A DNA stretch of 64,000 nucleotides from Mumia sp. zg.B17 (GTDB taxonomy: Bacteria; Actinomycetota; Actinomycetes; Propionibacteriales; Nocardioidaceae), in assembly GCF_019550915.1 (NCBI RefSeq), contig NZ_JAHWCI010000002.1, forward strand, positions 186,001-250,000, in the 5' to 3' direction. Positions within the stretch are counted from its first letter, which is position 1; each line of letters opens with the position of its first letter. The position numbers and the translations under genes are program-made. The notes below the pieces were generated by a model, which ran no database searches, had not been told where the DNA came from, and saw only the letters and a list, made by a program, of their open reading frames with translations. Of this stretch, positions 28,216-35,095 are shown one piece after another.

Positions 28216-29379
28216 GTGGATCTGATGGAGTACCAAGCGAAGGAGCTCTTCGCCAAGCATGGGGTTCCCGTGACGCTCGGCGTCGTGGCGAACACCCCTG
28301 AAGAGGCGCGCAAGGGCGCCGAAGACCTGGGTGGCGCAGTCGTCGTCAAGGCCCAGGTCAAGGCCGGTGGCCGCGGAAAGGCCGGCGGCGTCAAGCTCGC
28401 CAAGACGCCGCAGGAGGCCTTCGACCGCGCCAGCGACATCCTCGGCATGGAGATCAAGGGCCTGACGGTCAACCGTGTCCTGGTCGCGCCCGCCGCCAGC
28501 ATCGAGGACGAGTACTACTTCTCCTTCCTGCTCGACCGTGCCAACCGGCAGTACCTCTGCATCGCGTCGGTCGAGGGAGGTGTCGAGATCGAGGAGGTCG
28601 CGAAGACCAACCCCGACGCCGTCAAGCAGATCCCGATCGACCCGGGCACCGGCGTCGACGAGGCGACGGCCCGCGCGATCGCGACCGAGGCCGCCTTCCC
28701 CGAGCCGATCTTCGAGCAGGCCGTGACGCTGATCGAGGCGCTGTGGAAGGTCTTCGTCGAGGAGGACGCCACTCTGGTCGAGGTCAACCCGCTCGCGCGT
28801 CTGGCCGGCGACAAGCTCGAGGCGCTCGACGGCAAGGTCTCGCTCGACGACAACGCCGACTTCCGCCACCCCGATCACGAGACCTTCGTCGACAAGAGCG
28901 CGGAGAACCCGCTCGAGGCGAAGGCCAAGGCGCTCAACCTCAACTACGTCAAGCTCGACGGCCAGGTGGGGATCATCGGCAACGGTGCGGGCCTGGTCAT
29001 GTCGACCCTGGACGTCGTCGCGTACGCCGGTGAGAAGCACGGCGGCGTGAAGCCCGCGAACTTCCTCGACATCGGCGGCGGCGCGAACGCCGAGGTGATG
29101 GCGAACGGTCTCGACGTGATCCTCGGCGACCCCGACGTCCGGTCGGTGTTCGTCAACGTCTTCGGCGGCATCACCGCCTGTGACGAGGTCGCCAACGGCA
29201 TCGTGGGTGCACTCGATCTGCTCGGCGACGCGGCAACCAAGCCGCTCGTCGTCCGCCTCGACGGCAACAACGTCGAGCTCGGTCGGCAGATCCTCGACCA
29301 GCGCAACCACCCGCTGGTCACCCTGGTCGACACCATGGACGGCGCGGCCGACAAGGCCGCCGAGCTGGCGAACGCCTGA
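28216..29379 (+). CDS. sucC: Succinyl-CoA ligase [ADP-forming], beta subunit
   Basis: A 387-residue ATP-grasp subunit of succinyl-CoA synthetase, the TCA-cycle step that makes ATP (or GTP) from succinyl-CoA. It starts [20 protein letters not shown]. Conserved segments include [18 protein letters not shown] in the ATP-grasp region and [22 protein letters not shown] and [10 protein letters not shown] in the CoA-ligase domain. GTG 28216 is the first codon; ATG 28225 is an alternative. An AAAAGGA ribosome site lies about 10 bases upstream. sucD follows 14 bp downstream. Confidence 0.96.
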
Positions 29380-29393
29380 GAGGGGTCGAGGAC

Positions 29394-30287
29394 ATGTCGA
29401 TCTACCTGAACAAAGACTCCAAGATCATCGTCCAGGGCATCACCGGCGGGATGGGTGCCAAGCACACCGCGCTGATGATCGACGCCGGGTCGAACATCGT
29501 CGGAGGTGTGAACGCCCGCAAGGCGGGCACCACGGTGACCCACAAGAAGGGCGGCGCTGAGGTCGAGCTGCCCGTCTTTGGGACCGTCAAGGAGGCGATG
29601 GCCGAGACCGGCGCCGACGTGTCGGTCGTGTTCGTGCCGCCGGCCTTCACCAAGGACGCCTGCGTCGAGGCGATCGACGCGGGCATCGGTCTGCTGGTCG
29701 TCATCACCGAGGGTGTGCCGGTCCAGGACACGGCCGAGGTCTGGTCGTACCTCGAGGGCAAGCAGACTCGGATGATCGGGCCGAACTGCCCGGGCATCAT
29801 CACGCCGGGCGAGTCGCTGGCCGGCATCACTCCGCACACGATCGCGGGCAAGGGCCCGGTCGGCCTCGTGTCGAAGTCGGGCACGCTGACGTACCAGATG
29901 ATGTACGAGCTGTCGGACCACGGCTTCTCGACCGCCATCGGCATCGGCGGCGACCCGATCGTCGGGACGACGCACATCGACGCGCTCGAGGCGTTCGAGA
30001 ACGACCCCGAGACCCTGGCGATCGTGATGATCGGCGAGATCGGTGGCGACGCCGAGGAGCGGGCCGCGGCGTACATCAAGGAGCACGTCACCAAGCCGGT
30101 CGTCGGCTACGTGGCAGGCTTCACTGCCCCGGAGGGCAAGACGATGGGCCACGCCGGCGCCATCGTCTCGGGCTCCTCGGGCACCGCCGAGGCCAAGAAG
30201 GAGGCCCTCGAGGCCGCCGGTGTCAAGGTCGGCAAGACGCCGTCCGAGACCGCCGAGCTCATGCGCGAGATCCTCAAGGCTCTCTGA
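29394..30287 (+). CDS. sucD: Succinyl-CoA ligase [ADP-forming], alpha subunit
   Basis: A 297-residue CoA-binding and ligase subunit. Its Rossmann-type CoA site is [20 protein letters not shown]. The phosphohistidine loop is [19 protein letters not shown], with the active His near residue 253. [12 protein letters not shown] and [16 protein letters not shown] are also typical. It is translated from the sucCD operon. A 16-bp perfect hairpin terminator follows the stop. Confidence 0.97.
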
Positions 30288-30369: not shown

Positions 30370-30807
30370 TCACGTGTGGTCCGGGCCCTCGGCGTTCCAC
30401 TCGCCGCCCTGGAGGACGTCGTCGAGGGTGGACCGGAAGTTCGGGCACGAGGTGATGTCGTGCGCCCGGCACTCCAGCGCGTGGGCGGTCATCTCGCGTG
30501 ACCGGACCATCTCGGCCATCCGCCGGTCCAGGTCGGCGATGTGCGCCTCGAGGACGCTGTGCCGTCCGGCCCACTGCGCGTCCAGGAGTACTCGGATCTG
30601 GTCGAGGGACATGCCCGCGGCCTTGCTGCGCAGGATGACGGCGACACGGACGACGTCGCTGTCGTCATAACGGCGTCTGCCGCCCGCGTCTCGGCCTGGC
30701 GCGAGCAGGCCGACCGACTCCCAGTGCCGGAGGACGTTCGTCGGGAGGTCGAACCTGGCCGCCAGGTCGCCCACGGACCAGGTCACTTCGTCGGAGGTTG
30801 ACTTCAT
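30370..30807 (-). CDS. MerR-family transcriptional regulator
   Basis: A 145-residue MerR regulator. Its winged helix-turn-helix is TWSVGDLAARFDLPTNVLRH with WESVGLLAPGRDAGGRRRYD. A coiled-coil dimer helix follows (LDQIRVLLDAQWAGRHSVLE region). The C-terminal effector region contains a Cys-x2-His-x4-Cys cluster in ECRAHDITSCPNF, a candidate metal or redox sensor. It diverges from a thioredoxin-reductase-like gene. The start codon lies inside an 11-bp-arm dyad, so self-repression is likely (inference). Confidence 0.93.
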   Translation of the reverse strand: MKSTSDEVTWSVGDLAARFDLPTNVLRHWESVGLLAPGRDAGGRRRYDDSDVVRVAVILRSKAAGMSLDQIRVLLDAQWAGRHSVLEAHIADLDRRMAEMVRSREMTAHALECRAHDITSCPNFRSTLDDVLQGGEWNAEGPDHT

Positions 30808-30822
30808 GTTGACATGAAGTCA
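30799..30822. promoter_or_regulatory. MerR operator over the MerR start codon
   Basis: Perfect arms TGACTTCATGT and ACATGAAGTCA (11 bp each) have a 2-base spacer. The dyad covers the MerR ATG and a TTGACA -35 (30809-30814) pointing toward the flavoprotein gene. It is very likely the operator of this divergent pair. Confidence 0.75.
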
Positions 30823-30864
30823 CATGCTGGGTACCTCGATCAACCCAGAGCATGAGAGGACACC

Positions 30865-31833
30865 ATGACCATCGCACCGGACAAGACCTACGACGCCGTC
30901 GTGATCGGCGGAGGCCCGGCAGGACTCCAGGCCGCGTTGACGTTGGGCAGGATGCGGCGTGACGTGGTCGCGTTCGACTCCAGCGAGTACCGCAACGCCT
31001 CGGCGCGGCACATGCACAACGCCGTTACCCGCGACGGGACCTCGCCCGAGGACTTCCGTACGGCGGCTCGCGCGGAGCTCGCCGCGTACGACACGGTGGA
31101 GACGTGCGAGGCGAAGGTGACGGAAGTCGTCCCCGAGGGAGATGTCTTTAGCGTTCGCGTGGGTGCGGCGCCCGACGGTGGTTCGCTGCGCGTGCGCGCG
31201 AAGAACGTCATCCTCGCCACCGGGCTGCGTGACACGCTGCCCGACACCCCAGGGCTGGCGGAGCTGTGGGGCGACATCGTCGCCCAGTGCCCCTACTGCC
31301 ACGGGTACGAGCTCAAGGGGCGCCACGTCGCCATCCTCGGAAGCGGTCCCCACGCAGGCCGTGTGAGCATGCTGCTCGCGCGGATCGCCGACCGCATCAC
31401 GGTGCTCGCCGACGGCGAGGACCTCGAGGGGGAGACCCGTGAGCTCCTCGCGAGGAACGGGGTGCACGTGCGGGAGGAGCCGATCTCCGGCGTCCAGCGT
31501 CGCGGCGACGGGGCGGTGGTGTCGTTCGCCGACGGGCCGGCCGAGGAGATCGGCGGGATGTTCGTCACCACGGGTTCCTTCGCCCAGGCCGCGCCGTTCG
31601 CCGAGCAGCTGGGCCTGGACATGCTGCCGTCGGGCTGCATCCGGACCGACGAGCTGGGTCGCACGAGTCGCGACGGGATCTATGCCGCCGGTGACCTCGC
31701 GCACCTCGCCTCGTTGCCGATGCCGCTGGCCTCGGTCGTCACGGCCATCTCGGCGGGACTGCTGGCCGCCACGGCTGTCGACCAGGATCTCGTGGACGCG
31801 GCCATCGCCGACCCCGTGCCCGCCATGGCCTAG
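30865..31833 (+). CDS. FAD-dependent oxidoreductase, thioredoxin-reductase-like
   Basis: A 322-residue flavoprotein of the thioredoxin reductase fold. The FAD motif is VVIGGGPAGLQAAL (about 13-26), the redox-active pair is CPYC at residues 142-145 in AQCPYCHGYELKG, and the NADPH motif is ILGSGPHAGRVSML. The C-terminal FAD segment is GIYAAGDLAHLA. CPYC with a following HGYE is typical of low-molecular-weight-thiol or other TrxB-like enzymes rather than classic CATC TrxB, so the partner thiol is not assigned. ATG 30865 is preceded by GAGAGGA. It is divergent from the MerR gene and likely under its control. Confidence 0.9.
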   Translation: MTIAPDKTYDAVVIGGGPAGLQAALTLGRMRRDVVAFDSSEYRNASARHMHNAVTRDGTSPEDFRTAARAELAAYDTVETCEAKVTEVVPEGDVFSVRVGAAPDGGSLRVRAKNVILATGLRDTLPDTPGLAELWGDIVAQCPYCHGYELKGRHVAILGSGPHAGRVSMLLARIADRITVLADGEDLEGETRELLARNGVHVREEPISGVQRRGDGAVVSFADGPAEEIGGMFVTTGSFAQAAPFAEQLGLDMLPSGCIRTDELGRTSRDGIYAAGDLAHLASLPMPLASVVTAISAGLLAATAVDQDLVDAAIADPVPAMA

Positions 31834-31855: not shown

Positions 31856-33727
31856 TCAGCGCCAGTGGGCGAGGCGCTGGCCGGCGCGATCGGCAATCTG
31901 GGAGAACTGCCCGGCGCTCAGGTCGGCCCGCTTGTTGCCCGACTGCGCGACCTCGGTGACCGTGGCGCCCCGGACGACGAGCGCGAGGCGATAGCTGATC
32001 ACCGACTTGCGGCCGGTCTCGAACGACATCCGCCAGGTCTTGCCGGTGTAGCCGGCGCCACGGATCGGCTTGCCGGCGGAGATCGTGGCCGCCTGGTTGC
32101 GGTCCTCGCACTTCGCGATGCGCTTCTCGAGGCTCTTGACGAAGGCGCGTGCTCGAGCCGGCGTCCGGAAGGTGGCGATCGACTGGCCGATACCGAAGGT
32201 TCGCGGCGCAGCCTTGTCGTTCGGGACGACGTACATCCGACCACGCGCCTTGACGACGCCGCGCGAGAGGAAGTTGGCGCGGTCGCACATGGTGGCGGCG
32301 GGGTTGTCGCTGGGTGCCTTGGGCTCGGTGCCCGCCCACGGCTGCGACTGGGCACCCACCGGAGGCAGGTCGACGGCGGCGAGGAAGCCGGGGTTGGACG
32401 ACGTCCGGGGCAGCGGTGCCCCGACGACCTTCGTCGACGTCGTGCAGGGACCGCCCGACGCGGCGCACGCGAGCCGCATGCCCTCGACGAGCGTCTGGCC
32501 GAACGCCGCCATCGACGGGGCGGCCGAGCCGTCGGCGCGGTGCATCAGCATCGTGTTGACGACGCCGGTCTGCATCAGACCGATGGTGAGCGTCCTGGTG
32601 GGAGACGTGAGCTCCTGGAGCCGCAGGATCGTCACCGGCGACGCCGCCCCGGCCACGGTCGCGCTGCTGGAGGTGATCTGGACCCGCGGCACCGCGCAGT
32701 CGGCGTACCACTGGAGCCGACGCTTGAACGCCTGCTCCGCACCTTGGGTGTCGCGCGCGACCTCGAGGACGTGCACCGCCTGCTCCGGCTGGCCGTACGC
32801 CTCGAACTCACGGAGATAGGTCTTGGCGGGCCGGTCGGTGGCGAAGCGTCGCGGGGCGCAGGAGGTCAGCGGGTCGTCACTCGTGTCACGGACGTCCTCG
32901 CCGGCGGGCTCTGCCGAGGCTTCACCCTCGTCGTCCACCACCGACTCGTCCGCGACCGTCGTGACCGTGGTCCAGTCGCGCTTGGGGTTGATCCGGCCGA
33001 CCTCGATCGCGTTGAGCAGCGAGCGCGCTGTGACCGCGTCGCCGGGTCGCGCCGGCTCGACCATGCGCTCGCCGACGCGGTTGCGCTCCTGTGCGTGGGC
33101 GGGGCTCAGCGGAGCGGTCGGCGCGACGGCGAACCCGGCGGCCACCACCGCCGCGGTCGCCGCCGCGACGGAGCCGAGGGTGCGGCGGCGGCTGCGCTTG
33201 CGCGCCTTGCCGCGGATGCTGGCGGGGCGTTGGAGGGGGATGCGCTCGGAGATCTCCGACAGTCCGAGGAGGCGGCTCTCGACCTGCCCGATGCTCTGGC
33301 CCAGGGCCTGCTCGAGCTCGGTGACCGCCTGCTGGGTCTCGGTGACGGCGTCAGTGTCGGTCATCGCGAGGTCACGGGCGGCGGAGGACAGGTCGAGCTC
33401 GCCCAGGGTCTGGAGGATGATGAGCCGGCGGGTGCGGTTGCCGAGTCCCTGCAGCGCCTCGATCAGGGCGACGTCGCTGTCGTCCTCGTTCCGGCGGCGC
33501 CACGGCCGGGTGCCGCGGGCCACGCGTGCGTGGCGGAACGCCTCGCCGCGCACGAACGCGAGAGGGTCGCGGGTCCGCTGCTTGCCCCAGCTCTGCCACG
33601 CCTTCCCGTACGCCTCGGCGACCGCCTCTTCGGTGAGCGTGCGGTCACCGCTCTCGGCGTACGTGAGGTGGGTCACGTAGCGGCTGGTGGAGTCGTAGAA
33701 GGTGTCGAACTCTTCCACCTTCGGCAT
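31856..33727 (-). CDS. Membrane-anchored protein with N-terminal sigma-factor-like domain
   Basis: A 623-residue protein of three parts. Residues 1-150 resemble an ECF sigma factor: an EEAVAEAYGKAWQSWGKQRT region-2-like helix and an LIILQTLGELDLSSAARDLA region-4-like helix-turn-helix. A basic linker (RGKARKRSRRR, 172-182) precedes one membrane span at about 184-205. The remaining 400 residues would be extracellular and contain six Cys, in SCAPRR, ADCAVP, LACAAS, GGPCT, TMCDRA and AKCEDR, suggesting disulfides and a sensor-like domain. The design suggests a sigma or DNA-binding module tethered to the membrane by its own sensor. Whether it still binds RNA polymerase is unknown. Start ATG 33727. 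Confidence 0.82.
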   Translation of the reverse strand: MPKVEEFDTFYDSTSRYVTHLTYAESGDRTLTEEAVAEAYGKAWQSWGKQRTRDPLAFVRGEAFRHARVARGTRPWRRRNEDDSDVALIEALQGLGNRTRRLIILQTLGELDLSSAARDLAMTDTDAVTETQQAVTELEQALGQSIGQVESRLLGLSEISERIPLQRPASIRGKARKRSRRRTLGSVAAATAAVVAAGFAVAPTAPLSPAHAQERNRVGERMVEPARPGDAVTARSLLNAIEVGRINPKRDWTTVTTVADESVVDDEGEASAEPAGEDVRDTSDDPLTSCAPRRFATDRPAKTYLREFEAYGQPEQAVHVLEVARDTQGAEQAFKRRLQWYADCAVPRVQITSSSATVAGAASPVTILRLQELTSPTRTLTIGLMQTGVVNTMLMHRADGSAAPSMAAFGQTLVEGMRLACAASGGPCTTSTKVVGAPLPRTSSNPGFLAAVDLPPVGAQSQPWAGTEPKAPSDNPAATMCDRANFLSRGVVKARGRMYVVPNDKAAPRTFGIGQSIATFRTPARARAFVKSLEKRIAKCEDRNQAATISAGKPIRGAGYTGKTWRMSFETGRKSVISYRLALVVRGATVTEVAQSGNKRADLSAGQFSQIADRAGQRLAHWR

Positions 33728-33832: not shown

Positions 33833-35095
33833 ATGGTGATGATGACCGAGACCTTGAGATCAGCACCGGGCCCTGTTCGTGGACGCCTCGTCAGCGTCGG
33901 GCGGCCTGGTTGGGCGGCCGGCGCGACCGGCGCCCTCCTCGCCGCCGCCATCGGCCTCCTGCTCTGCGGTGGCCTGACCGTCGTGGTCTGGCTCTCCGGC
34001 GAGGGAGGGACGGCCGGAGGAGCGCTGCGCGGCGGCGCGATCGGCTGGCTCGCCGCCCACGGGACGGGCGTCGCGGTCGGGAGCACGGTGATCAACGCGA
34101 TCCCTCTGGGCCTCCTCGCCCTCGTCGTGGTGCTCCTGCACGGCGCGGTGTCGCGGCTCGCCGCCGCGTACGGGGTGTCGTCCTCGGTGCGGGAGGCGGT
34201 GATCGCCGGCCTGGCGTGCGGGACGGCGTACGCGGTGGTGCTCGTCCTCGTGGCGTGGTGGTCGGCCTTGGCGGCGGTGCAGGTCGAGCCGCTGCGGGCC
34301 GCGTTCGCGGGCTTCCTCCTGGGCGCGCTGTGCGGGACGACCGGGTGCGCCCAGGGGACGGGAGTCGCCCGTCGCCAGTACCTGGCGCTGCCCGTGCTCG
34401 GGCGGGCTGCGCTGCGGGGCGCGATGCTCGGCGCGGCCGTGGTGCTCGCCGTGGCGGCGCTGCTCGTCATCGGCGGCCTCGTGGTGCGCCTCGATGCCGC
34501 GGGCGCACTCTGGAGCGGCTTGAACCCTGGTGTCCTCGGCGGCGTGGGGCTGCTCCTCGTGTGCCTGCTCGTCCTGCCCAACCTCGTCCTGTGGAACGCC
34601 GCTGCCCTCCTCGGCCCCGGGTACGCCGTGGGTACGGGCACCTCGGTGACGCTCACCTCCAGCGGTCTGGGAGCCGTTCCCGCCCTGCCGGTCCTGGCTG
34701 CGCTGCCGCCGGTCGGTCCGCGTCCGGCATGGCTGGTGGTCCTCGCCGTGGTGCCCCTGCTGGCCGGTGCGGTCGCCGGATACTCCACCGTGGCCCCGCG
34801 ACCGGACGGGGCGAGGGTCGGCACCCTTCGTACAGTCCTCACCGCGGGTGCCGGGTCGGGTGCGCTCGCCGGCTCGGCCGTCGCGGTCGGCCTGCTCCTG
34901 TCCGGCGGCGCCATCGGACCAGGACGGCTGGGCCACACCGGTCCCGACGTCGGCCTCGCGGTGCCGCTGTCGATCGTCGTCCTCGCCGTGGGTGGCGCGG
35001 TCGGCGCGGCCGCGGCGCACTATCGTGGGCGCCGTGGAGCAGACGACGCCGCCTCCGCGGTCCCAGACACGCCGGACTCCACCCCCGTCGACTGA
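33833..35095 (+). CDS. DUF6350 multi-pass membrane protein
   Basis: A 420-residue membrane protein with about ten hydrophobic segments and a short acidic tail ([20 protein letters not shown]). It matches the DUF6350 group that lies immediately upstream of purN in many actinobacteria; some members are discussed as cell-division-related (PerM-like), but the function is not established. Several ATG codons open the frame (33833, 33839, 33842), and I use the first. Its last 62 bases overlap the purN start in another frame. Confidence 0.85.
   Translation: MVMMTETLRSAPGPVRGRLVSVGRPGWAAGATGALLAAAIGLLLCGGLTVVVWLSGEGGTAGGALRGGAIGWLAAHGTGVAVGSTVINAIPLGLLALVVVLLHGAVSRLAAAYGVSSSVREAVIAGLACGTAYAVVLVLVAWWSALAAVQVEPLRAAFAGFLLGALCGTTGCAQGTGVARRQYLALPVLGRAALRGAMLGAAVVLAVAALLVIGGLVVRLDAAGALWSGLNPGVLGGVGLLLVCLLVLPNLVLWNAAALLGPGYAVGTGTSVTLTSSGLGAVPALPVLAALPPVGPRPAWLVVLAVVPLLAGAVAGYSTVAPRPDGARVGTLRTVLTAGAGSGALAGSAVAVGLLLSGGAIGPGRLGHTGPDVGLAVPLSIVVLAVGGAVGAAAAHYRGRRGADDAASAVPDTPDSTPVD
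35021..35026 (+). promoter_or_regulatory. -10 element (TATCGT) inside DUF6350 gene, driving purN
   Basis: TATCGT ends 7 bases before GTG 35034, matching the leaderless pattern. It lies inside the 3' end of the DUF6350 gene, so purN-purH may have its own promoter. Confidence 0.45.

Follow-up and report, generated by a model that had tools for sequence, protein, structure and literature searches.

A Nocardioidaceae membrane protein that joins a probable pseudo-sigma domain to a putative envelope sensor

Gene organization and domain layout

The window, by which we mean the whole stretch of 64,000 nucleotides of Mumia sp. zg.B17 that was analyzed, carries on its minus strand the open reading frame 31856..33727, which starts with ATG, has a GC3 of 0.93 and encodes a protein of 623 aa that we describe as a fused pseudo-sigma and membrane sensor. 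The reading frame is kept end to end in six genomes of the genus Mumia. All of the parts given below lie on the same strand. The protein begins with a sigma region-2-like domain (residues 7-72; 33512..33709), in which A37 stands in place of the canonical Q of region 2.2, followed by a sigma region-4-like domain (residues 84-142; 33302..33478) with no basic residues in its recognition helix. The next part is a juxtamembrane segment (residues 145-184; 33176..33295) that contains an L..L...[IV]R motif and a basic stretch, with nine K/R between residues 165 and 184. A single membrane span (residues 184-202; 33122..33178) was located by hydropathy, being the sole strong peak of the protein (mean 1.96, and at most 1.16 elsewhere). 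An AxA site (PAHA-Q), variant forms of which occur in several relatives, was also observed just past the span (window positions 33097-33176, approximately residues 185-210), and could be a candidate signal peptidase site that would free the outside domain.

The 418-residue part beyond the span consists of two repeats of one domain (profile comparison, E 2e-5). Repeat 1 (residues 284-436; 32420..32878) contains C290, C344, C421 and C428, and repeat 2 (residues 446-623; 31859..32392) contains C481 and C540. All six cysteines, which lie beyond the membrane span, are invariant in 27 relatives and probably form three disulfides. Repeat 2 matches the PknH_C family (PF14032) with 29.1 bits against a gathering threshold of 27, and 16 of the 27 relatives match this model at E 0.01; a comparison of the repeats with PDB sequences gave no match. 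A zinc-finger anti-sigma domain was not found among the Pfam/NCBIfam matches, and there is no cysteine before residue 290. A preliminary description of this DNA had proposed an ECF-sigma-like part (residues 1-150), a basic linker, one span and an outside domain with six cysteines, and this arrangement is observed in the reading frame. As in the ECF48/52/53 layout, a sigma domain, a membrane span and an outside domain are thus present in one chain.

Conservation of the locus in Nocardioidaceae

Relatives were found in 183 of 192 good Nocardioidaceae genomes, mostly at full length and usually as one match per genome, and the two Mumia relatives are 72-75% identical to the window protein. Among 296 genomes sampled across the class, only those of Nocardioidaceae contained the fused form at full length. 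When the genome of the window was searched with the window protein, only the protein itself was retrieved at E values up to 10.

The gene occupies a conserved slot, sucC-sucD-[gene]-DUF6350-purN-purH. In the window, sucC-sucD (28216..30287, plus strand) form one flank, and the divergent neighbour on the other side encodes the DUF6350 membrane protein (33833..35095, plus strand). The DUF6350 gene is presumably the counterpart of perM. The perM region of M. tuberculosis has been linked to cell division (PMC8093794). Additionally, genes for a TrxB-like oxidoreductase and a MerR protein lie between sucD and the fused gene in the window (30370-31833); neither occurs in the slot of any other genus examined. 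The fused gene is flanked by the TrxB-like oxidoreductase and MerR genes and, at its opposite end, by DUF6350, and no anti-sigma gene adjoins it, as had been remarked before.

Sigma ancestry of the N-terminal domain

Residues 4-144 of the window protein match TIGR02983, the model of SigE-family sigma factors, with E 4.9e-9 when the whole protein is used and 1.5e-10 when residues 1-160 are used, and the same model matches all 25 relatives scanned (best E 9.5e-21). The scores of the window family (36-41 bits) lie below the curated cut-off of 141.55 bits, which is reached by no sigma factor of the window's genome. A profile of the family, compared with the PDB, aligned with many sigma factors, among them SigK (4nqw), where the match runs the whole length of the sigma factor (E 1.3e-5). 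The sigma-2 and sigma-4 homology by which an ECF sigma factor is recognized is therefore present, and both profile matches bear out the sigma origin that had been assigned to this domain. Another ECF-sigma-like match, one of approximately 30 TIGR02983 matches in this genome, is located at positions 719-1183 of the window.

Structure prediction, which had been suggested as a check, was performed with AlphaFold using the window sequence and two Mumia loci as input. Both models were poor, with a mean pLDDT of 37 for the full length and 61 for the N-terminal domain, and a Foldseek search of the model against the PDB gave no significant match, SigJ and SigW being merely among the weak ones.

Probable origin from a sigma and membrane partner pair

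The slot was compared with that of three families (f2, f3 and f4) of the same order as Nocardioidaceae, of which f4 is called here the sister family. In f4 it holds, in the same orientation, an intact SigE-type sigma gene beside DUF6350 and, beside sucD, a gene for a membrane protein whose outside domain contains cysteines; the two genes overlap or adjoin. Since sigma factor and membrane protein are encoded separately in this slot, and the former is intact, the window gene looks like a fused pair, and the proposal that sigma factor and regulator had merged into one protein finds here its split equivalent. The outside domain of the f4 partner matches both repeats of the fused protein in profile comparisons, and the membrane partners of split sigma pairs share with the fused protein the L..L...[IV]R motif and the basic stretch of the juxtamembrane segment. 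In several genomes, searches with the fused protein run across the stop codon of the sigma gene into the partner gene. In the phylogenetic tree all fused sigma domains group together in a single clade (100/99), and their nearest neighbours are the f4 sigma factors, with moderate support (93/79). In f2 and f3 the slot encodes a protein that has the outside domain but no sigma domain, and in one genome of Nocardioidaceae (G012) the sigma domain has been lost from the gene in the slot.

Two further candidates were considered and rejected. The apparent split gene of genome G065 is due to a frameshift, and in genus g23, considered as a source of an intact version, the slot is taken by a long protein of no relation (860 aa in locus L141), beside a split intact pair.

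At three loci the fused gene has as its neighbour a second pair, which is intact and adjoins sucD (L033:6868-8878, L035:3211-5158 and L046:8445-10449). In each of them an intact SigE-type sigma gene overlaps the gene of a membrane protein that has cysteines in its outside domain and a VRRRG.R.RRR-like motif; the pair of L035 and that of L046 are found near kynureninase. Judging from their sequences, these are likely uncharacterized pairs of a sigma factor and a membrane anti-sigma factor. At locus L034 the second pair, although intact, is also fused: a natural fusion of 636 aa (L034:3585-5495) joins an intact-looking SigE-type sigma domain, with the helix GTVKARLSRGR, to the same kind of partner, and would be a better candidate for a working tethered sigma factor than the window gene. 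Two further loci (L051:4683-6428 and L052:5069-7423) encode relatives that lack the sigma domain and have a cytoplasmic tail that is long, acidic and rich in Thr, with TTLLPRT-like repeats; these tails are possibly kinase/FHA targets.

Loss of contact-type residues in the fused sigma domain

Sigma-type residues were compared between 68 fused relatives and 16 canonical sigma domains, 12 from the genome of the window and four from neighbouring pairs. Of the fused sequences, 41 were added to a fixed alignment in which their insertions were cut, which should change the residue counts little. The contact roles of the scored positions, for RNA polymerase and promoter DNA, are assumed from general knowledge of sigma factors and not from a structure of the window protein. 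Q37 is found in 14 of the 16 canonical domains and in 2 of the 68 fused ones, and E38 in 15% of the fused family, which thus lacks the region 2.2 core-RNAP motif (D/E..Q-E) expected of an ECF sigma factor. In the recognition helix, position 128 is basic in 13/16 canonical and 0/68 fused domains, and R130 (12/16 versus 4%), R133 (15/16 versus 10%) and R135 (13/16 versus 6%) follow the same pattern. The mean net charge of this helix is +4.1 in the canonical and -2.0 in the fused domains; it is zero or negative in 64 of the 68 fused relatives, where the basic -35 helix is therefore missing, and mildly basic in the remaining four. Considering six contact-type positions together, the canonical sigma factors keep four to six, whereas 63 of the 68 fused relatives keep none or one.

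These losses speak against the earlier view of a DNA-binding module able to act as a sigma factor, since the Q-E pair and the basic residues of the recognition helix are gone across the family. The preliminary description had named two findings that would count against it, a predicted structure with no sigma fold and loss of all polymerase and DNA contact residues. The second is largely what we observed at the level of sequence. It is important to mention that the loss of contact-type residues is no proof that binding to RNA polymerase is lost as well, and that the fused domain would, on this evidence, lack sigma activity.

The linker between sigma2 and sigma4, which is essential in SigH (PMC6411747), was also compared and comprises 23-31 residues in the fused and 35-55 in the canonical domains over the same alignment columns. 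It was dropped as proof of inactivity and given no weight, as another sigma chain in the PDB (6dxo) is about as short.

Constraint on the sigma domain

Within Mumia, dN/dS is lowest in the N-terminal domain (approximately 0.16), the values for the two outside repeats being 0.40 and 0.31. Additionally, 21 of 27 positions conserved in the family carry the same residue in the intact f4 sigma factors. Among these shared positions are W47, R60 and R100, which are invariant in the fused family, and R118-E119, of which position 119 is D in the window protein. As the positions common to the f4 sigma factors are kept and dN/dS is lowest there, the fused sigma domain is not in free decay.

A proposed membrane receptor with a sigma-derived head

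We consider it somewhat probable (roughly 55%) that the protein is a fusion of an ancestral SigE-family ECF sigma factor with a membrane sensor, in which a pseudo-sigma of retained fold serves, held in cis, as the interaction head of an envelope sensor. The outside part, a double PknH_C-like domain with three probable disulfides, would read the state of the cell envelope. From there the signal would cross the membrane by way of the one span and reach the juxtamembrane segment, which is anti-sigma-like and on which the pseudo-sigma may sit in cis, and would alter the state of the pseudo-sigma. The pseudo-sigma would thus be a protein-interaction platform at the membrane and not an initiator of transcription. 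The preliminary description had left room for a pure membrane regulator, and the loss of contact residues across the family suggests that this option fits best. The wider proposal, that the family as a whole consists of vertically kept transmembrane pseudo-sigma receptors, fused, with contacts lost, in which the sigma fold has become a signalling head, encoded opposite the DUF6350 gene, is more tentative, at a little under even odds.

Of the other readings, a decoy is the one that survives best, although we regard it as unlikely. The pseudo-sigma would then bind in trans to an anti-sigma factor, such as the membrane protein paired with an intact paralogous sigma factor, and would set that sigma factor free once the sensor is triggered, as in PhyR/NepR. 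A fold that is retained while its contact residues are lost would suit such a role, and so would the second pairs that adjoin the fused gene in several genera (intact in L033, L035 and L046, fused but intact in L034); in Mumia, however, no such pair lies beside the gene, and the search of its own genome retrieved the protein alone. A PhyR-type model does match 17 of 25 members, but weakly and largely through common sigma-4 ancestry, and no receiver domain was found in the Pfam/NCBIfam scan.

Still less probable is the working one-component sigma factor of the earlier reading, which would be freed by regulated proteolysis and start transcription. The general layout is that of ECF48/52/53 (PMC8999054, PMC5826349), W47, R60 and R100 are invariant, and the AxA-like site past the span in several relatives may be a cleavage site; against this, neither the Q-E pair nor a basic recognition helix has been kept in the family, and the zinc-finger anti-sigma domain was not found. 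An inert sigma domain, a relic that serves as a mere anchor for an outside domain that does all the work, is equally improbable: f2, f3 and G012 do have the outside domain in the same slot without a sigma domain, but the sigma domain is retained in almost all Nocardioidaceae and, within Mumia, is under the strongest constraint of all parts.

Comparison with known systems

The locus offers a comparative series, from a split intact pair (f4) and a fused protein with a decayed sigma domain (Nocardioidaceae) to the sensor alone (f2, f3), which shows how a transcription factor may turn into a membrane receptor domain. It points to an uncharacterized membrane signalling protein, near-universal in Nocardioidaceae and adjoining the DUF6350 gene, and advises that contact residues be checked before fused ECF proteins are annotated as sigma factors. 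No publication on a fused pseudo-sigma/PknH_C-like architecture was found, a weak negative result as subscription literature lay outside the search, and none of the known systems that we found joins a sigma domain without contact residues to an outside domain of the PknH_C type.

Membrane-fused ECF sigma factors are known from ECF48/52/53 and IutY (PMC8999054, PMC5826349); release by proteolysis has been suggested for ECF52 and demonstrated for IutY. ECF52 (SCO4117), ECF48 and ECF53, also from Actinobacteria, resemble the window protein in uniting an ECF sigma domain and a span, and in ECF52 also an outside sensor, in one chain. They are considered to be functional sigma factors and carry an anti-sigma domain of the zinc-finger type, whereas the window protein has no zinc finger, a PknH_C-like outside part and lost sigma contacts. 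In IutY of Pseudomonas putida the sigma factor is likewise fused to its membrane regulator, an anti-sigma factor, but is active after proteolysis, an activity that is doubtful for the window protein. The operons of a SigE-family sigma factor and its membrane partner (L127, L033, L035, L046) are built of homologous parts, with the same locus and order in f4, but comprise two genes, and their sigma factor is intact. PhyR also uses a sigma-derived domain in a non-sigma role; it is soluble and has a receiver domain, whereas the window protein is membrane-anchored and has an outside sensor. Finally, outside repeat 2 scores above the Pfam cut-off for the extracellular domain of PknH (PF14032), although the window protein has two repeats and these are joined to a pseudo-sigma instead of a kinase.
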